Part shown: piece by piece, positions 3,585 to 12,609 of the stretch
Layout of the letters: each line of letters begins with the position of its first letter
Position numbering within the stretch: the stretch's first letter is position 1
Source: Thermoanaerobaculia bacterium
GTDB lineage: Bacteria; Acidobacteriota; Thermoanaerobaculia; JALWYX01
Assembly: GCA_027078415.1 (NCBI GenBank)
Contig: JALWYX010000055.1
Location: forward strand, 1 to 44,407
Reading direction: 5' to 3'
DNA length: 44,407 bases
Program-made: the position numbers and the translations under genes
Notes under the pieces: model-generated
Database searches by the model: none
What the model was told of the DNA's origin: nothing
The model's input: the letters and a program-made list of their open reading frames with translations, nothing else

Positions 3585-4805
3585 ATGCAGTATTACTGTA
3601 GGGTAGGAACTCAAGAAGGAAAAATAGTTGAAGGGTATTTTGAAGGTGAGAGCGAAGATCTTTTAAGGCAGGAGCTTATTAGGAAAGGTTATCACGTATT
3701 TGAGATTAGAAGGAGGGGAGTTTCTCTCGATTTTCTAACTTCATTTTTCAGAGGGGTAAAAAGGAGGAAAAGAGTAGATCCTGAGAAGTTTCTTATTTTT
3801 AATAAAGAGCTGGCTGTTCTTTTGAGAGCTGGTATTCCTTTGCTTCAGACGCTAGAGATTTTAAAAGAGAGGGTGGAAGATCCGGAATTTAGGCAGGTTA
3901 TAGAAGATGTTTACGATGATGTAAAAAGTGGATCGGATCTCTCAGCAGCTTTTGAGAGGCACGGGGATGTGGTTCCTAGAGTTTATCCTGCTACTCTTAA
4001 GGCTGGCGAAAGAACAGGTGAGCTTAGCAGAGTTATAGAGAGATTTGCCTACTATTACCAGTTGCTTATCGACGCTAGGAGTAAAATAATTAGTGCTCTA
4101 GTTTATCCTATTGTACTTATAATGCTTTCTTTTGGCATGCTGGTAATAATGGGTGTTTACGTAGTTCCTAAGTTTAACGCTTTTTTTGCCGATCTGGAAG
4201 TAGAGTTGCCTTGGCTTACCGTAGCTATAATAGCTGCTGGCTCTTTTGTCAATAGAAATATTTTTTACATAATATTTGTCGCGTTTATTATCTGGTTGGC
4301 TATGAGAAACTGGCTAAGGTCTCCTAGGGGTAAAAGATTGGTTGATTACTATAAGTTGAAGATCCCTTTAGTAGGTGAGATGCTCCGAGACTTTTTTATA
4401 TCGGAGTATTGTAGGTCATTAGCTACTTTATTGGATGGTGGTTTGCCTTTAGTTGAATCTTTGAGAATAGCTACTTCCTCTTTAAGCAATTGGTACATTC
4501 AGGATAAACTACAACCTGTTATTGAGAAGGTGAAAGAAGGTAAAGCTTTGTACGAGAGTTTGGAAGCTACCTCTTTGTTCGAAGGGGCTGCTATAGATAT
4601 GGTAAGGGTAGGGGAAGCTACCGGTTCCCTCGGAGAAATGCTACATAATATCTCTACTTTTATAGATCAGCAGGTGGAAATGCGAATGAGAAGGATATTG
4701 TCTTTAATAGAGCCTTTGATGTTGGTGATTATGGGTGTAATTATAGGGATTTTACTCATAGCTATATACGTTCCTATGTTTACAGCTATAGGTAATCTTA
4801 GGTAA
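3585..4805 (+). CDS. gspF: Type II secretion / type IV pilus inner-membrane platform protein GspF/PilC
   Basis: This polytopic protein forms the inner-membrane platform on which the secretion ATPase acts. At 406 residues it is the usual family size. An N-terminal short domain (YxCRVGTQEGKIVEGYFEGES, as in GspF) is followed by two copies of the T2SSF domain, about residues 70-195 and 275-400. Each starts with a FxxELAxLLxxGxPLxxxLE-type motif and ends in hydrophobic membrane segments (about 165-190, 215-240, 370-395). AGGAG sits only one base before the ATG at 3585, which is unusually close. The start is kept because the N-terminus aligns with known GspF. The next gene, gspE, follows after 11 nt. 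Confidence 0.93.
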   Translation: MQYYCRVGTQEGKIVEGYFEGESEDLLRQELIRKGYHVFEIRRRGVSLDFLTSFFRGVKRRKRVDPEKFLIFNKELAVLLRAGIPLLQTLEILKERVEDPEFRQVIEDVYDDVKSGSDLSAAFERHGDVVPRVYPATLKAGERTGELSRVIERFAYYYQLLIDARSKIISALVYPIVLIMLSFGMLVIMGVYVVPKFNAFFADLEVELPWLTVAIIAAGSFVNRNIFYIIFVAFIIWLAMRNWLRSPRGKRLVDYYKLKIPLVGEMLRDFFISEYCRSLATLLDGGLPLVESLRIATSSLSNWYIQDKLQPVIEKVKEGKALYESLEATSLFEGAAIDMVRVGEATGSLGEMLHNISTFIDQQVEMRMRRILSLIEPLMLVIMGVIIGILLIAIYVPMFTAIGNLR

Positions 4806-4816
4806 GGAGGTTATAT

Positions 4817-6457
4817 ATGGAGAGAGGGACAAAGGCGTCTATATCTAAAGATATTTTGGAACATACAAAATTGAGGATAGTGCAAGAGACAGAGGAAGCA
4901 AAGAGAATCGCCTCTATGTACGGTTTGGACTTTGTAGACGTTACTCGCTTTAGGATAGACAACGATCTTTTTAGATCTATTCCTTTCGATCTTATGCTTC
5001 GTTACACATTTATACCTGAGAAGAGGGAAAATGGGAAGTTGCACATAGTAATTGCGGACCCTACCGATGTTGGCAAAATAGATGAGATAGAGATGGTACT
5101 TGGGGAGCCGGTTGAAGTTAAAGTAGGAGCAAAGGGTGGAATAGAAGAGATTTTGCAAAAATCTGAGAGTGTCCAAAGAGTTTTGGACGAGGCTAGTGAA
5201 GATTTTAAAATGCAACTTGTACAAGAGGATGAGGAAGGGGAGGAAGTACTTTCGTTAGATAGAATAGCTGCAGATACCAGCCCTATTGTTAAATTAGTCG
5301 ATACAGTTATATTCAACGCTATACAGAGGAGGGCTAGCGATATACATATAGAGACAAGGGATAGCGAGGTTATAATAAAGTACAGGATAGATGGAGCTCT
5401 TTACCAGGCTATGGAGCCTATAGATAAAAGACACCATCAGACAATAATAAGCAGGATAAAAGTTATGGCTGAACTCGACATAGCTGAAAAGAGAATACCC
5501 CAAGATGGTAGGTTCAAACTTAGAGTTAAAAAAAGAACGATAGATTTCAGGGTCTCTATACTTCCTACTGTGCATGGAGAAGATTGCGTTATAAGGATTC
5601 TCGATAAAGAATCTATGAGTAAAGAGTTTGCTAAACTCAGCTTAGATGTTTTGGGAATAGATGAAGAGACTATAAAAAAGTTGAGGAAACATATAAGAGA
5701 ACCTTACGGTATGATTTTGGTAACAGGCCCTACAGGTTCTGGTAAAACTACAACGCTTTACGCTTGTCTTTCTGAGATTCAATCTTCTGAAGACAAAATA
5801 ATAACTATAGAAGACCCTGTAGAATATCAACTAAAAGGTATAACTCAGATACCTGTAAATGAGAAAAAAGGATTAACGTTTGCTAAAGGACTTAGAGCTA
5901 TACTTCGTCATGATCCAGATAAGATAATGGTGGGGGAGATAAGAGATGAAGAAACAGCTCAGATAGCCGTTCAGGCTGCTCTCACAGGGCATCTTCTTTT
6001 TACAACTGTACATGCCAACAACGTTTTTGATGTTATTGGTAGATTTCTTAACATGAATGTAGATCTTTACAATTTCGTTTCGGCTCTTAATTGTGTTCTA
6101 GCTCAAAGGTTGGTTAGAAAGATATGTGACAATTGTAAAACTCCTGTTGAAATAAGTGACGAGGAGTTGGATAGAAACGGCTTAGATCCATCTGTATACC
6201 GGGACTTTACTTTTTACGAAGGTTCCGGCTGTATAGAATGCGATGGTACGGGATTTAGAGGAAGATTAGCTATAGCGGAGCTTTTAGATGTATCTGATAG
6301 TATTAAAGAACTTATAATGGAAAAGAGGCCAGCTTCTGAGATAAAGAGGGTAGCTAGAGAAGAGGGTATGGTTTTCTTAAGAGAAGCTGCATTGGAAAAA
6401 CTTTTTGAGGGGGTTACAACTTTACATGAGATCAATAAAGTTACCTTCGTGGAGTAG
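4817..6457 (+). CDS. gspE: Secretion/pilus assembly ATPase GspE/PilB
   Basis: This hexameric cytoplasmic ATPase powers pseudopilus or pilus extension. Its 546 residues comprise an N-terminal MshEN/T2SSE-N domain (about 30-110) and a linker rich in Glu. The RecA-like motor domain follows, with Walker A GPTGSGKTTTLY near 303-314, an Asp box around IEDPVEY, Walker B IMVGEIRDEET near 370-380, and a His box LTGHLLFTTVHANN. The tetracysteine zinc motif of GspE/PilB is present as CDNC near 437 and CIEC near 472. A strong AAGGAGG site lies 6 nt before the ATG. It is placed between the platform protein and the PilM-like gene. The sequence cannot separate a secretion ATPase from a pilus one; the neighbouring pseudopilins favour secretion or a short pseudopilus. 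Confidence 0.95.
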   Translation: MERGTKASISKDILEHTKLRIVQETEEAKRIASMYGLDFVDVTRFRIDNDLFRSIPFDLMLRYTFIPEKRENGKLHIVIADPTDVGKIDEIEMVLGEPVEVKVGAKGGIEEILQKSESVQRVLDEASEDFKMQLVQEDEEGEEVLSLDRIAADTSPIVKLVDTVIFNAIQRRASDIHIETRDSEVIIKYRIDGALYQAMEPIDKRHHQTIISRIKVMAELDIAEKRIPQDGRFKLRVKKRTIDFRVSILPTVHGEDCVIRILDKESMSKEFAKLSLDVLGIDEETIKKLRKHIREPYGMILVTGPTGSGKTTTLYACLSEIQSSEDKIITIEDPVEYQLKGITQIPVNEKKGLTFAKGLRAILRHDPDKIMVGEIRDEETAQIAVQAALTGHLLFTTVHANNVFDVIGRFLNMNVDLYNFVSALNCVLAQRLVRKICDNCKTPVEISDEELDRNGLDPSVYRDFTFYEGSGCIECDGTGFRGRLAIAELLDVSDSIKELIMEKRPASEIKRVAREEGMVFLREAALEKLFEGVTTLHEINKVTFVE

Positions 6458-7394
6458 AAAACTTTTGGGGTTCTACCCTGTTAAAGTACCTCCTAACGTG
6501 GTGGTGGTGGACGAAAGTGGCTTTGGGGCGGTTAAGTTTGTGAGAGAGAAGGAAAGTATCTTCGTTTTAGTATCTAACTACCTATCTATACCTGAGGGTA
6601 GACTTTTTGAAAAAATGCCTTTGGGTGGAAGATTGGAAAAGAAAGAAGAGGCTAGAGAGTTATTCTCTTCTCTAATCGAAAGAGTAGGAAAGATCGACGC
6701 GGTTGTTTTGTTAGTGCCAGATGTTTGGTATAGACTGGCTATAATAGAAGTGGAAAATTTTCCCCATGATGAAGATACTAGATTGGATGTAATAAGATGG
6801 AAACTTAAGAAATCTGTACCTGTTAGACCTGAAGAACTTAGGATAGATTATGAGATATTAAGAGAGGATAAGGGAATAACCAAGCTATTGCTGGGATTTT
6901 GCTCGGAACAGTTTCTTTCCGATTTGGAAAACCTTTTGGAATCTTTCGATATTAAAGTAGGTTGGATAACTAACGAGACTGTGTCCGCTTACAGGGCAGT
7001 TAAATCTATAATAGACACTTTTTCTGTATCTTCTCTTCTTCTAGCTTCTAAGAGATACTATACTCTTACGGTGTTTAATGAACGTAGACCTGTGATATAT
7101 AGGTTTAAAAAGATGGTTAAGGAATTGGATGAGGAGGAGAAAAGTATAAGACGAGATTTGCGGTTAACAGCAGTTTATATACGTGAGAAGTTAGGTATAA
7201 ATCTTCCCGAAAGAAACTTGGTAGTTGCAGAACAGAAAACATCTTCTAGGTGGGGAGAGCTTTTAAAGAGAGAATTGGGAGGTGAGGTTGAGATACCACC
7301 TCTTCCAATACCTCCAACTCAGGAGACTTTGGCTCAATATTCTTTCAGAGAACTACTACCTCTTATGGGTGCTGCTATGCTGGAGGTTGAGTAG
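6426..7394 (+). CDS. pilM: PilM/GspL-like actin-fold assembly protein
   Basis: The 322-residue protein looks like a PilM/GspL cytoplasmic actin-fold domain. It has a VVVVDESGFGAVKFV strand-turn-strand near residue 28, as in the phosphate-1 region of PilM. It also has a middle segment (LLVPDVWYRLAIIEVENFP, then IRWKLKKSVPVRPEELRIDYEIL) that matches the conserved PilM block in which the protein contacts its partners. ATP-binding glycines are poorly conserved, so nucleotide binding is uncertain. I chose the ATG at 6426 over a TTG at 6405; it overlaps gspE by 32 nt and has GAGGGGG about 12 nt upstream. PilM-type proteins bind the cytoplasmic tail of PilN and couple the ATPase to the inner-membrane complex; pilN follows directly. 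Confidence 0.8.
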   Translation: MRSIKLPSWSRKLLGFYPVKVPPNVVVVDESGFGAVKFVREKESIFVLVSNYLSIPEGRLFEKMPLGGRLEKKEEARELFSSLIERVGKIDAVVLLVPDVWYRLAIIEVENFPHDEDTRLDVIRWKLKKSVPVRPEELRIDYEILREDKGITKLLLGFCSEQFLSDLENLLESFDIKVGWITNETVSAYRAVKSIIDTFSVSSLLLASKRYYTLTVFNERRPVIYRFKKMVKELDEEEKSIRRDLRLTAVYIREKLGINLPERNLVVAEQKTSSRWGELLKRELGGEVEIPPLPIPPTQETLAQYSFRELLPLMGAAMLEVE

Positions 7395-7994
7395 ATGAAT
7401 ATAAATCTGGCAAGGAAACCTTTTATAAATAGAAAACCTGTGATTAGGGTAAGCGTGATACTGTGGCTATTAGCATTTTTAATGACTTTCTTTAACGTGA
7501 GTTTGTATCTTAAATATATGGAAGGTTTTAGCAAAAGATTTGAAGAAGCAGCAATCCTTAAGGATAAAATAGAAAAGGATAGAGAAACTATTAGAGAACT
7601 TTCGGATAGACTCTCCAAGATGAGACTCAAGAAGCTTAACAAGAAGGTAAAATTTATAAATTCTCTTATAAGGCAGAGAACTTTGAAGTGGACCGCGATA
7701 TTTAGCAAGTTGGGTGAAATTTTGCCTGTAGAAGTTAGACTTGTTTCTCTTTCTCCCCGAGTAAAAAGCAGCAGGCAATATGCGAAAATGAAGCATCTGG
7801 AAGAAATATCTTTGGGATTGGTAGGTGTTGCTAAAGGCAGTGAATCTCTTTATAAATTTTTGGATAGTCTTTATAAAGATCCCCATTTTTTTAATCCTTC
7901 ACTCCAAGGAGAGAGTACTCAGCAAGACGGAGTTGTTTTTAATATGAATACTATCTTTGTGTTACCTCAAGGAGGTATAGACGGTGAGAAATAA
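7395..7994 (+). CDS. pilN: PilN-like inner-membrane assembly protein
   Basis: This 199-residue bitopic protein starts with the INLARKPFINRK motif characteristic of PilN, the short cytoplasmic peptide that docks onto PilM. A membrane helix follows (about residues 18-36), then a coiled coil rich in Lys/Glu (about 48-88), and a periplasmic ferredoxin-like domain. GGAGG lies 8 nt before the ATG, which directly follows the pilM stop. PilN and PilO form a periplasmic scaffold linking the platform to the secretin; GspL plus GspM fill the equivalent roles in type II secretion. The gene overlaps pilO by 11 nt. Identification rests on the N-terminal motif, topology and gene order. Confidence 0.8.
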   Translation: MNINLARKPFINRKPVIRVSVILWLLAFLMTFFNVSLYLKYMEGFSKRFEEAAILKDKIEKDRETIRELSDRLSKMRLKKLNKKVKFINSLIRQRTLKWTAIFSKLGEILPVEVRLVSLSPRVKSSRQYAKMKHLEEISLGLVGVAKGSESLYKFLDSLYKDPHFFNPSLQGESTQQDGVVFNMNTIFVLPQGGIDGEK

Positions 7995-8547
7995 GTGGAG
8001 GTTTTATTGGAAATACTGGGTTATACCTCTAATTGTCGTTATAGTAAATCTGGTTTTTCTAGGAGCTCACAAATTTGTTATAGAAGGAAGATTAGCTTCG
8101 CTAGAATCCCAGTTGAAGAACCGTAGGGAAGTTTCTGCAGAGCTTGCTTTATTGCGGAAGGAACTGGAGAAGAGGTTATCCTTGGCCAAAGATGCGGAGA
8201 GAGGGATTAACTACTTTTACAAAGAGGTTCTTGGAAAAGAGAAAGACAGATTTACAGAGCTTGTTAGGGAACTTAGAAAGATTGCTAGGGATAGCGGGTT
8301 GAGTATTTCCTCTATAAGTTATCCTGAAACAGAGATAAAAGAATTTTCTCTAGAGAGAAAATTCTTTACTTTTGGTGTAGTTGGTAACTACAGGCAGCTT
8401 TTTGACTTTGTCTCTCGTATAGAAGTTAGCGATTACTTCTTTTACATAGATAAGATTGCTGTATCTCAAAGGGATGGAGGTTTATTGGATATAAGTATGG
8501 TTATTGCTACTTTTTTTGAAGCGGAAAAGAGGAAAAAAGATATATGA
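7984..8547 (+). CDS. pilO: PilO/GspM-like inner-membrane assembly protein
   Basis: The 187-residue protein has one N-terminal membrane helix (about residues 10-30), a coiled coil of roughly 50 residues, and a small periplasmic alpha/beta domain, which is the PilO plan. The periplasmic part holds LVRELRKIARDSGLSISSI and a GNYRQLFDFVSRIE helix that match the PilO ferredoxin-like domain. It starts with GTG at 7984 inside the end of pilN, supported by AAGGAGG 8 nt upstream. It heterodimerises with PilN in known systems. Its stop overlaps the next start as ATGA, which suggests translational coupling across pilN-pilO-pilP. Primary sequence is weakly conserved in this family, so context carries part of the assignment. 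Confidence 0.78.
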   Translation: MRNKWRFYWKYWVIPLIVVIVNLVFLGAHKFVIEGRLASLESQLKNRREVSAELALLRKELEKRLSLAKDAERGINYFYKEVLGKEKDRFTELVRELRKIARDSGLSISSISYPETEIKEFSLERKFFTFGVVGNYRQLFDFVSRIEVSDYFFYIDKIAVSQRDGGLLDISMVIATFFEAEKRKKDI

Positions 8548-9110
8548 GCGGAAGAACTAAATTCCTTGCAGCTATTTTAATATTTGCAATTGTTGTGTAT
8601 TTAGGAAACCGCTTAAAAGTAGGTAATTTGTTGGGTTATTTTCTTCCCTCTACTCTTATACCTTTGGCTAAAGGTGACGATGTGGATGTTGATCTAGATA
8701 AGCTTGAAGTGGTAGAGCTTAGGCTAGATCTTCTTTCTAGAGTTGATAAGAAGAGTAGTCCGAATATAGGACGTGATCCTTGGAGGTACGGCCAGATTGT
8801 CTCTCGTATAGATACACCACCACCTCCTCCTCCTAAACCTAAGAAAGTTGAGCCTCCTAAAGTCGTAGAAAAGGAAGATGAAGGTCCACGTTTGCCTTCA
8901 TTATCTGGTATATCGTTTTTAGGAAGTTTTGGTCCCGATTATAAGAGGGTTGCTGTTTTTAAGTTTGGTGATGGAACCTTGGAGATTGTTCCAGAGGGGG
9001 ATACTTTTGGAAGAGAGTTTATTGTCAGAAGAGTAGATTATGAGTGGGTTGAGATAGGTTTTGTTAACTTCCCAAATGCACCTACTAGAAAGATATTTGT
9101 TGGAGGATAG
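8544..9110 (+). CDS. PilP/GspC-like protein connecting inner-membrane complex and secretin
   Basis: This 188-residue protein has an N-terminal membrane helix (about residues 7-24) followed by a charged segment. A proline-rich linker (TPPPPPPKPKKVEPPKVVEK, about 91-110) follows. A C-terminal beta domain (about 118-188) has the hydrophobic strand pattern SGISFLGSF...RVAVFKFGDGTLEIVPEGDTF...RVDYEWVEIGF. That is the layout of the homology region of GspC and PilP, which contacts the secretin N0/N1 domains across the periplasm. Unlike PilP it lacks a lipobox and keeps a membrane anchor, so it is closer to GspC in topology. It overlaps pilO by 4 nt and precedes the secretin. Assignment relies on topology, fold pattern and position. 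Confidence 0.72.
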   Translation: MSGRTKFLAAILIFAIVVYLGNRLKVGNLLGYFLPSTLIPLAKGDDVDVDLDKLEVVELRLDLLSRVDKKSSPNIGRDPWRYGQIVSRIDTPPPPPPKPKKVEPPKVVEKEDEGPRLPSLSGISFLGSFGPDYKRVAVFKFGDGTLEIVPEGDTFGREFIVRRVDYEWVEIGFVNFPNAPTRKIFVGG

Positions 9111-9129: not shown

Positions 9130-10890
9130 ATGAAGAAATTTGCATTTTTAGCTGTTTTTCTATTTTTTGCAACTGGGTGTAGGTACCATTATATTCATAA
9201 GCAAGCTAGGTTAGCAGAGCAAAGTGGAGATTACGCAAGGGCAGTAGTATTGTATGAAGAGCTAGTTAAGGCTTATCCTGACAATTTGAGTTATAGAGCT
9301 TCCTTGCGTCAAGTTAGATTTAAGGCTTCTCAATTTCATTTCCGCAGAGGACAGAAATATCAAAGAGTAGGAGAGTACGAAAAGGCTTTAGTAGAGTTTA
9401 GGAAAGCCTTGGAACTTGATCCTACCAATCAGTACGCTAAATCGGAGTTTATGAAGGTAAAAGATATTCTTTCTGGAGACGAGGAGGCTAAAGAAACTCT
9501 GGAAGATATAAAAAAGAGAGTATTGAGAGATGTTAAGCCTCCCACTCTAGATCCACGTTCCCCTGAACCTATAGATCTTAGATTTCCTGAACCAGTTTCT
9601 GTTTTCGATATATACAACGCTCTTGGTAAAGCGTTTGGTATAAATATAGTATTTGATCCTGAGTTAAGGGAAGAGGAGATCTCTATAGAATTGGAAGATG
9701 TGACAGCAGAAGAGGCTCTCGAGATACTTATGCAAGCGGTAGGTCATTTTTACAAAGTTATAGATGAGCACACTATCCTTATAGCTCAGGATACTCCTCA
9801 AAATAGGAAGGCTTATGAATCGTTAGTTATGCAGGTTTATTTTCTTTCTAACGCCGATGCTAAATCTTTGATAAGTCTTCTTAGAACTTTAGTGGATATG
9901 AGAAAAGTCGTGGCTGTAGAAGATTTAAACGCTATAGCTATGAGGGATACTGCTAACAAGGCTAAAATAGCGGAAAGGCTTATCGGTCTTATAGATAAGT
10001 CGAAAGCCGAAGTAGTTGTAGATGTCGAACTGATCCAGATAGATTCTCAAAGTTTGACAGAGTTAGGTGTAAATTTATCGTCTTACTCTATAGTTCAGGG
10101 GCTTGACTTAGGTGAGGAAGGAGGAACTGTAACTATATCGGATATACCTAATATAAGCAGGCAGTGGTGGAGTTTGACATTACCCAGTTTTATTTACAAT
10201 TTTCTTAAACAAAATACCAATGCTGAAGTTCTTGCTAGGCCACAGTTGAGGATATCTGAGAATGAAAAGGCAACTTTGCATATAGGTGATAAGGTGCCTG
10301 TACCTGTTACTCAATTTAACACTGCTCAGACGGTAGGTGGTAATATAGTTCCTATAACCTCTTTTCAGTACCAGGATGTGGGTATAAAAATAGATATAAC
10401 GCCTAGAGTGCATCATAATTTCGAGATAACCTTGGATGTTAAGATAGAAGTGTCGAATATATCTGGATTTGTGGAAGGGGGAGGAGGTCAAAATCTGCCC
10501 AGAATATCTACGAGAAAGATAGAGACAACTATAAGGCTAAAAGACGGAGAAACCAATTTGTTGGCCGGTCTTATACGGGATGATAGTACCTTTTCTAACA
10601 CAGGTGTACCAGGGATAACTGAGATACCTATATTAGGTAGGTTATTTTCAAACTCTCGTAGAGATTCTCAACGCACCGAGCTGGTTTTAACATTAACTCC
10701 CCACATAATACGTAAACCGGATATAACGGAAGAGGATCTATTGCCGTTGTGGATAGGTACTGAGAGAAATCTGTCTTTAAGAGGTTTTAGCCCGCGTGTA
10801 GATTCACCCGTGAAGGGGCCTTTTGATAATAGCGAGAGAGAAGATAAGCTCAAGAAACATTTACAAAAAATTATGAGTAAAGGCAGATAG
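9130..10890 (+). CDS. gspD: Secretin lipoprotein (GspD/PilQ) with N-terminal TPR repeats
   Basis: This is the outer-membrane channel of the system. It has 586 residues. A lipoprotein signal ends in FFATGC (Cys17). Two or three TPR-like repeats follow at about 27-110, with YARAVVLYEELVKAYPDN and YEKALVEFRKALELDPTN as typical TPR helices. An STN/N0 domain follows (about 135-220), then one NolW-type N domain (about 228-290). The C-terminal secretin domain (about 330-550) contains ARPQLRISENEKATLHIGDKVPVPV and the final VPGITEIPILGRLF motif. The multiple N domains of classic GspD are reduced to one. Built-in lipidation and TPRs probably replace a separate pilotin. GGAGGGAG precedes the ATG. The next genes, after 39 nt, encode pseudopilins. 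Confidence 0.92.
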   Translation: MKKFAFLAVFLFFATGCRYHYIHKQARLAEQSGDYARAVVLYEELVKAYPDNLSYRASLRQVRFKASQFHFRRGQKYQRVGEYEKALVEFRKALELDPTNQYAKSEFMKVKDILSGDEEAKETLEDIKKRVLRDVKPPTLDPRSPEPIDLRFPEPVSVFDIYNALGKAFGINIVFDPELREEEISIELEDVTAEEALEILMQAVGHFYKVIDEHTILIAQDTPQNRKAYESLVMQVYFLSNADAKSLISLLRTLVDMRKVVAVEDLNAIAMRDTANKAKIAERLIGLIDKSKAEVVVDVELIQIDSQSLTELGVNLSSYSIVQGLDLGEEGGTVTISDIPNISRQWWSLTLPSFIYNFLKQNTNAEVLARPQLRISENEKATLHIGDKVPVPVTQFNTAQTVGGNIVPITSFQYQDVGIKIDITPRVHHNFEITLDVKIEVSNISGFVEGGGGQNLPRISTRKIETTIRLKDGETNLLAGLIRDDSTFSNTGVPGITEIPILGRLFSNSRRDSQRTELVLTLTPHIIRKPDITEEDLLPLWIGTERNLSLRGFSPRVDSPVKGPFDNSEREDKLKKHLQKIMSKGR

Positions 10891-10929: not shown

Positions 10930-11385
10930 ATGATGAGAGAAAAAGGTTATTCGTTAGCAGAGTTGGTTATGGTAACCTCTATTCTTGCTATACTAGCTTC
11001 AATAGCTCTTCCTTCTATAAAGTATACTAACAGAAGGTTAAAAGAGGCTGAGCTTAGGCAGGCTTTAAGAAGTATGAGAAACGCTATAGATGAGTTTAAA
11101 AGGTATTCCGATCTTGGTTTAATATCACCTGACTTTGGGACAGACGGTTATCCTAAAGATTTAGAGGTTCTTGTGGAAGGTGTCCCTTTGGTGGGAATGA
11201 TAGACAAAAAAATACGTTTTCTTAGAAAAATACCTGTAGATCCAATGACAGGAAAGGCTGAGTGGGGTCTTAGAAGCTATCAAGATGAATGGAACTCTAC
11301 TAGCTGGGGAGGAGAAAACGTGTACGATGTTTACTCTTTGAGTGAAGGCGTTGGGTTAAATGGTATACCTTACAGGGAGTGGTGA
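10930..11385 (+). CDS. GspG-like pseudopilin 1
   Basis: The protein (151 residues from this ATG; a second ATG at 10933 is equally possible) has a prepilin leader ending in EKG before YSLAELV. Cleavage and methylation would be at Gly6/Tyr7 by a prepilin peptidase, which is not in this window. Glu is present at mature position 5. The hydrophobic N-terminal helix runs to about residue 30, followed by the LRxALRSMRNAIDEFKRYSD helix usual in GspG. The RKIPVDPMTGKAEWGLRSY segment resembles the calcium-loop region of GspG. The C-terminus ends at NGIPYREW. The next pseudopilin starts 4 nt after the stop. The 39 nt before the gene contain GAAAAATTTTTC and a T-run but no proper hairpin. Confidence 0.85.
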   Translation: MMREKGYSLAELVMVTSILAILASIALPSIKYTNRRLKEAELRQALRSMRNAIDEFKRYSDLGLISPDFGTDGYPKDLEVLVEGVPLVGMIDKKIRFLRKIPVDPMTGKAEWGLRSYQDEWNSTSWGGENVYDVYSLSEGVGLNGIPYREW

Positions 11386-11389
11386 GATT

Positions 11390-11803
11390 ATGCGTGGAGA
11401 AAAAGGTTTTACCTTGATGGAGCTTATAATAGTTATAGCTATAATAGGAATTCTCGCTACTGTGGCTATGCCTAGAATGCTCCATCTGCCAAAAAAGGCG
11501 AAGGAAGCAGCTCTTAAGACAGATCTGCTGGTTATGAGAGACGCTATAGATCAGTATTACGGTGATAAGGGACACTACCCTCCTTCTCTAGAAGCTCTTG
11601 TTGAAGAAGGATATTTGAGAAAGATTCCTGTAGATCCCTTTACTAAGAGGAACGACACGTGGGTTGTAGTATATGAAGAGCAAGATCTAGAAGAACCTCC
11701 TCCGGAGACCGAAGTGCCTGAAACAGGAGAAGTAGGCATAATAGATGTTCACTCGGGTTACGAGGGGAAAGCTCTCGATGGTTCGCTTATAAGCGAGTGG
11801 TGA
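11390..11803 (+). CDS. gspG: GspG-like major pseudopilin 2
   Basis: Starting at the ATG at 11390, this 137-residue protein begins MRGEKG followed by FTLMELIIVIAIIGILATVAMP, the most canonical prepilin leader of the three here. Cleavage falls after Gly6 and Glu is at mature position 5. The helix continues to ALKTDLLVMRDAIDQYYGDKGHYPPSLEALVEEGY, a classical GspG block. RKIPVDPFTKRNDTW follows, the equivalent of the GspG calcium-binding region. It is the best candidate for the major pseudopilin. An upstream in-frame start would add a non-leader extension and is rejected. It ends in SEW and its last codons overlap the GTG start of the third pseudopilin by 7 nt. Confidence 0.88.
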   Translation: MRGEKGFTLMELIIVIAIIGILATVAMPRMLHLPKKAKEAALKTDLLVMRDAIDQYYGDKGHYPPSLEALVEEGYLRKIPVDPFTKRNDTWVVVYEEQDLEEPPPETEVPETGEVGIIDVHSGYEGKALDGSLISEW

Positions 11804-12609
11804 AAAGAGAGAAAGGTTATAGCCTGGCTTATTTGATAGTTGCTATTACTGTACTTAACGTGGTGGTAGCTACAGCGTTGCCGGTTTGGAGTACTTTCAT
11901 AAAGAGAGAAAAGGAGGAAGAACTGATATTTAGAGGGCTACAATACGCGGAAGCTATAAGGGTTTTTAAGAGAAGATTTGGAAGATATCCTAACAAGTTG
12001 GAAGAGTTGTTGAAAAATGAACCTAGATCTATAAGGCAACTTTGGAGAGACCCTATGACTGGAAAAGTTGATTGGGTACCTATAGTGGCAATAGGGTCTC
12101 AAGGTGGGCCTGCAGGTATTCCTGGAGGAGTGAAACCTCCTAAGGGAGGAAAAGGTGGAGGGTTACCTCCTATTTTGGGAGGAGGTAAACTTGGTCCCAA
12201 ACTGATGCAGATGCCCAAAGGTGATCTTCCCTTAAGGGATAAAGGTTTACCTTCTGTTGGGGATGGAGATATGGATGATTCCTTTGGTGATACAGATAAA
12301 AAACTTATAACGGGACCTATAAAAGGTGTTAGAAGTAGGAGTAAAGGAAAAGCTATGAAGATATTTTTAGGAAAAGATCGGTACAATCAGTGGGCGTTTA
12401 CCGAAGAGCTGCTTCTTTATCCTGTAGGAATAGGTAAGGACGGGGGTGTTCCCAGATTGAATGCTATCTGGATAGGTAGACCTCTTAGGCCAGGTTTAGC
12501 TACTCCGCAACCTGGAGGCAAGCCTGGAGCTCCTCCTACAGGTGGTCCTTTGCCTCCACCTCCTCCTGGAGTGCCAAAAGGAGACCTACCTTTACCTCCT
12601 AAAAGATAG
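11797..12609 (+). CDS. GspG-related pseudopilin 3, Glu5-less, with Gly/Pro-rich extension
   Basis: This 270-residue protein starts with GTG (11797, or the adjacent GTG at 11800). Its prepilin leader is KREKG followed by YSLAYLIVAITVLNVVVATALP. Mature position 5 is Tyr where Glu is nearly invariant; GspK-type tip pseudopilins also lack Glu5. A GspG-like helix and LWRDPMTGKVDW follow. The chain then becomes Gly/Pro/Lys-rich over about residues 100-185, returns to an ordered segment (DRYNQWAFTEELLLYPVGIG, about 195-230), and ends in a proline-rich tail with repeated KGDLPL. The low-complexity regions are about 40% of the protein. It may sit at the pseudopilus tip or act in substrate contact, by analogy only. 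dut begins 1 nt after its stop. Confidence 0.78.
   Translation: MVKREKGYSLAYLIVAITVLNVVVATALPVWSTFIKREKEEELIFRGLQYAEAIRVFKRRFGRYPNKLEELLKNEPRSIRQLWRDPMTGKVDWVPIVAIGSQGGPAGIPGGVKPPKGGKGGGLPPILGGGKLGPKLMQMPKGDLPLRDKGLPSVGDGDMDDSFGDTDKKLITGPIKGVRSRSKGKAMKIFLGKDRYNQWAFTEELLLYPVGIGKDGGVPRLNAIWIGRPLRPGLATPQPGGKPGAPPTGGPLPPPPPGVPKGDLPLPPKR

Follow-up and report, generated by a model that had tools for sequence, protein, structure and literature searches.

The Question Raised by the Locus

The window, which is the whole 44,407-nucleotide stretch analyzed here, carries a type II secretion (T2SS) cassette with the gene order gspC-secretin-PP1-PP2-PP3. The last gene, PP3, encodes a pseudopilin that lacks the glutamate found at mature position 5 (Glu5) in the two pseudopilins upstream of it, and its product is extended by long Gly/Pro-rich segments. 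The locus therefore raises the question of what kind of subunit PP3 is and which position it could take in the pseudopilus. The reading favored here, with a probability of roughly 65%, is that the T2SS has three pseudopilins, of which PP3 is the conserved third, and that PP3 is, by comparison with published systems, most likely the topmost, first subunit of the pseudopilus. The features of the locus are as follows.

3585..4805, + strand: GspF/PilC-type platform protein (from sequence and position; same place in Janthinobacterium)
4817..6457, + strand: GspE/PilB-type ATPase (Walker motif GPTGSGKTT; homologs beside PP3 in other loci)
6405..7394, + strand: probable PilM/GspL-like protein, start uncertain (from position; no family match)
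7395..7994, + strand: PilN-like protein (PF05137, 0.0025, under the cut-off, together with position)
7984..8547, + strand: PilO-like protein (PF04350, 1.5e-5)
8544..9110, + strand: GspC/PilP-like inner-membrane protein (cassette position, proline-rich linker, homologs in the same place; no Pfam match)
9130..10890, + strand: secretin with N-terminal TPR repeats (Secretin 4.1e-44, TPR_2 5e-13)
10930..11385, + strand: PP1, pseudopilin with Glu5 (N_methyl over cut-off; Glu5 in 102 of 102 readable homologs, under a search pattern that itself requires it)
11390..11803, + strand: PP2, GspG-like pseudopilin with Glu5 (TIGR01710 E 4.5e-16, below the curated cut-off; N_methyl over cut-off; Glu5 in 107 of 107, under the same kind of pattern)
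11797..12609, + strand: PP3, third pseudopilin, without Glu5, with a GspG-like core and a disordered insert and tail (open reading frame, leader, homologs, model)
11818..11979, + strand: mature N-terminal helix of PP3, residues 1-54, with Tyr5 (AlphaFold helix 2-54; Glu5 absent in 110 homologs)
12076..12312, + strand: Gly/Pro-rich insert of PP3, residues 87-165, between strands 1 and 2 (pLDDT, composition)
12313..12405, + strand: conserved C-terminal half of the PP3 pilin domain, GPIKGVRSRS...YNQWAFT (alignments)
12406..12606, + strand: Gly/Pro-rich tail of PP3 with a conserved IG[RK]P[FL] motif (motif in 54 of 110 homologs)

PP2 is the probable major pseudopilin, and its mature product is 131 residues long, as against 263 for PP3. 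Besides its TPR repeats, the secretin carries a lipoprotein-like signal (ATGC), as though a PilF/Tgl-type TPR pilotin had been joined to it.

Sequence Features of PP3

The PP3 open reading frame starts with GTG and encodes a prepilin of 270 amino acids. An equally good start is the GTG at 11800, which overlaps the PP2 stop codon as GTGA. The leader reads MVKREKG/YSLAYLIVAI (the slash marks the prepilin cleavage site), which places Tyr at mature position 5, whereas the leaders of the upstream neighbors (KG/YSLAE and KG/FTLME) both place Glu there, as had been read in the preliminary description. The long Gly/Pro-rich insert and tail noted there are equally borne out by composition, since Gly and Pro make up 39% of the insert (79 residues) and 48% of the tail (67 residues) but 10% of the core. 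The repeats reported within these segments proved less general. PKGDLPL is present in only two copies, at 12214 in the insert and at 12574 in the tail, whose DNA shows five synonymous differences in 21 bases; a 7-mer repeat arises at a frequency of 0.27% when insert and tail are shuffled, and no repeat of this type is prominent in PP3 homologs.

A sequencing frameshift had been named as a possible source of the tail. It was looked for and not found, as the conserved blocks GPIxGVxSxS...YxxWxFT and PRLxxxWIGRPxxPG continue 3' of the insert in the same frame. On the evidence of these blocks the insert and the tail are not products of a frameshift, and this origin of the tail is rejected. PP3 has no Pfam match at E values up to 1.

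Conservation and Position 5

PP3 homologs were found in 59 of 61 class-mate genomes and, across the phylum, in 161 of the 199 genomes sampled. The named relatives are Acidobacteriota, many of them labelled Thermoanaerobaculia or Holophagales. Most loci show the order secretin-PP1-PP2-PP3, except for two with PP3 near gspE (L096 and L112) and some with contig ends or a gap before PP3. In all 107 of 107 loci PP3 is longer than PP2. The features of PP3 are neither peculiar to one genome nor an artefact.

Tyr5 had been proposed for a conservation check, and it is not the feature that is conserved. Among 110 homologs, position 5 is occupied by Ala (56), Val (19), Ile (13), Met (10), Gly (4), Leu (3), Thr (3), Phe (1), and Tyr (1), the last being PP3 of the window itself, so Tyr5 was rejected as a conserved feature. 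Homologs with Glu at this position were searched for in the same set and none was found (0 of 110); it is the absence of Glu5 that is conserved. Glu5 is present in all readable PP1 (102) and PP2 (107) proteins, counts obtained with a search pattern that itself requires Glu at position 5, and the three hits outside this pattern are PP1 fragments truncated at the end of a contig.

The Gly/Pro-rich segments are conserved more loosely. In the 88 homologs with both insert boundaries readable, the insert is 35-97 residues long (median 53.5) with a median Gly and Pro content of 34%, while in Aminicenantes the insert region is poor in these residues. The IG[RK]P[FL] motif of the tail is kept in 54 of the 110 homologs. 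At the other end of the protein, three homologs (L042, L043, and L087) have Ala in place of the Gly before the prepilin cleavage site (DA/FTLV).

Predicted Structure

The AlphaFold model of the window PP3 has a confident core, and its insert and tail are unstructured. Strand 1 spans residues 87-90 and strand 2 residues 168-172, with the insert in between; blocks from residue 91 to residue 160 have mean pLDDT values of 42-55, so that the chain is predicted to be disordered after strand 1. The model matches best to five GspG/PulG structures (Z 8.2-8.6 over 87-97 aligned residues), and the rest of the match list, below these, consists of type IV pilins; the Z scores were obtained by re-examining Foldseek's own match list and cover the families in that list. 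A Z score near 8 is only moderate, but the top five matches all belong to one family. The model of a compact homolog (L117) reached a pLDDT of 92; a Foldseek search with it gave no match better than E 1.7, and the plausible ones were pilins only. A phmmer search against solved structures returned weak pilin matches only.

The preliminary label of GspG-like can thus be kept for the predicted core, which resembles GspG (PulG, EpsG) in fold. Beyond the fold the likeness does not extend, as PP3 lacks Glu5, is much longer, and falls into a separate clade.

Origin of PP3

Profile comparison showed that PP1, PP2, and PP3 are all homologous, with a probability of 98.9 for the PP3-PP2 pair. In a tree of the three pseudopilins, PP3 forms one clade (SH-aLRT 99) that also includes Aminicenantes and three Burkholderiales proteins; the tree was built by a quick method on 124 columns, and its deep order is unsure. 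Since PP3 has its own clade reaching into Burkholderiales, the tree indicates that it is an ancient paralog rather than a recently copied GspG. The earlier proposal that PP3 was built from a duplicated GspG could therefore apply to an ancient event only; a copy of the local PP2 does not agree with a clade that spans Acidobacteriota, Aminicenantes, and Burkholderiales, and recent duplication was rejected as the origin on the basis of this phylum-wide separation. Because the insert region is poor in Gly and Pro in Aminicenantes and only about ten residues long in Burkholderiales, the insert would most simply be read as a single loop that was lengthened within the phylum.

Comparison With Described Secretion Systems

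The nearest described system is the second T2SS of Geobacter (Pul/Oxp), which has three pseudopilins, PulG, OxpG, and TklG. The Geobacteraceae Pul system is reported to be needed for secreting the multicopper oxidase OmpB, in a passage of PMC3543383 that cites Mehta et al. (2006). The window cassette, likened to this system by description, would resemble it in having GspF, GspE, putative PilMNO-like proteins, GspC, a secretin, PP1, PP2, and PP3. Of these, the three pseudopilins and PilO are seen in the window, whereas PilN remains under its cut-off and PilM is without a match. No multicopper oxidase was identified beside the window cassette. On the megaplasmid of Cupriavidus metallidurans CH34, a multicopper oxidase gene lies directly 3' of the PP3 homolog (L129, about 7230-8742). 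This echoes the Geobacter Pul substrate and is suggestive of a link to that system.

Burkholderiales plasmids carry a 'type II secretion system protein' in loci (L126, L127, L128, and L135) with the same gene order as the window cassette. Glu5 is absent in the four PP3 homologs that were read from this order (L126-L129), three of which belong to the PP3 clade. These proteins differ from the window PP3 in having no Gly/Pro insert. As they lack it, the insert cannot be required for the core function of the protein. In the literature, a paper on the Burkholderia vietnamiensis T2SS deals with the canonical Gsp operon, and a survey of type IV filaments built its trees without minor pilins.

Proposed Role at the Pseudopilus Tip

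Through Glu5 a subunit pairs with the N-terminus of its upper neighbor, and the subunit that caps a tip complex lacks Glu5 (PMC10191384). Proposed signatures of a first subunit are a hydrophobic residue at position 5, a size larger than that of the major pilin, and a gene at the 3' end of the cluster (PMC5207764). All three are found in PP3, although residue 5 is Tyr here and not an aliphatic residue. The suggestion in the preliminary description that PP3 is a tip subunit agrees with these hallmarks, and it is from them that we infer its place atop a three-subunit pseudopilus.

On this model, prepilin peptidase, of which one was found genome-wide (beside two secretins), would cut PP3 after Gly. 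PP3 would then prime assembly as the first, topmost subunit with nothing above it. With no upper subunit whose N-terminus must be paired, it would need no Glu5, so position 5 would be free to vary between uncharged residues. Beneath PP3, first PP1 and next PP2, each bearing Glu5, would be added and push the substrate through the secretin. The bulk of PP3, namely the insert between strands 1 and 2 and the tail, would be held at the tip, where it may touch the substrate or the secretin gate. More tentatively, with the odds against it, the cassette could be a minimal T2SS in which a single GspG-derived, Glu5-less subunit replaces the GspH-I-J-K tip, and in which, in Acidobacteriota, the long disordered Gly/Pro insert and tail capture the substrate or gate the secretin. 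Against a tip role for PP3, the genome encodes other Glu5-less pilins that could serve as tips, a PilX-like protein on contig C5 and a small K-like protein on C60. The predicted disorder of the insert, so unlike the extra domain of GspK, and its absence from the Burkholderiales homologs also speak against this role.

Among the alternatives, the one that survives best, though we regard it as improbable, is that PP3 is processed and membrane-anchored but stays outside the filament as a periplasmic substrate receptor or adaptor, having lost Glu5 because polymerization is unneeded. Glu5 matters for recruitment to the assembly platform, going by the title of Nivaskumar (2016) as cited in PMC5207764, and long disordered parts would suit binding more than packing. 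However, the pilin core and the leader of PP3 are well conserved, its predicted fold is that of a pseudopilin, and the known Glu5-less minor pilins cap filaments (PMC10191384; PMC5207764).

More doubtful still is that a separate set of minor pilins caps the pseudopilus and leaves PP3 as a shaft or accessory subunit. Two sets could be considered. C60 (L120:6885-8108) has three short, overlapping prepilin genes in a row, an I/J/K-like triad whose last member lacks Glu5, and C5 (L119:1833-8912) encodes FimT, PilV, a PilW-like protein, and the Glu5-less PilX-like protein beside PilY1. The K-like protein of C60 had no match in 40 relatives, whereas PP3 is near universal there; it is therefore unpromising as a conserved tip, though divergence may hide the homologs of such a short protein. 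The C5 set carries PilY1, the hallmark of a type IV pilus, and a second secretin is encoded in the genome. Moreover, the Burkholderiales operons contain three pseudopilins, to which one operon adds an extra GspG. The PilY1 of C5 has a possible VWA domain.

That PP3 is a GspK ortholog which has diverged strongly appears very unlikely, even though PP3 shares with GspK (XcpX, PulK) the lack of Glu5, a bulk exceeding that of the major pilin, the last place in the cluster, and an insertion between strands 1 and 2, where the additional domain of GspK sits (PMC5207764). In GspK this segment is a rigid domain of helices, and it has been proposed to arrest GspK at the secretin; the PP3 insert is predicted to be disordered and not alpha-helical. 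PP3 also has no match to the Pfam T2SSK family at E values up to 1, and its core matches solved structures of GspG and not of GspK, the last being a weak point since a missing match excludes nothing. A search for GspK with the PF03934 profile gave nothing in the genome itself; in 37 of 61 class-mates it gave hits that were weak and fell mostly on other short prepilins, so that they are no guide to which genomes encode a GspK.

Finally, production of the PP3 gene by a frameshift or by recent local duplication of the adjoining gspG can be dismissed, for although PP3 adjoins a gspG-like gene and has a DPMTG motif in common with PP1, the conserved in-frame blocks after the insert and the phylum-wide clade already refute it.

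Implications

PP3 belongs to a known kind of pseudopilin and carries a lineage-specific insert that is predicted to be disordered. As the family is near universal in the phylum, where secretion has received little study, and PP3 is without a Pfam match, naming it would improve the annotation of many genomes. If the tip role is true, three pseudopilins would do the job of five in the textbook T2SS, and the cassette would offer a simple model of pseudopilus initiation and of the contacts made at the tip.
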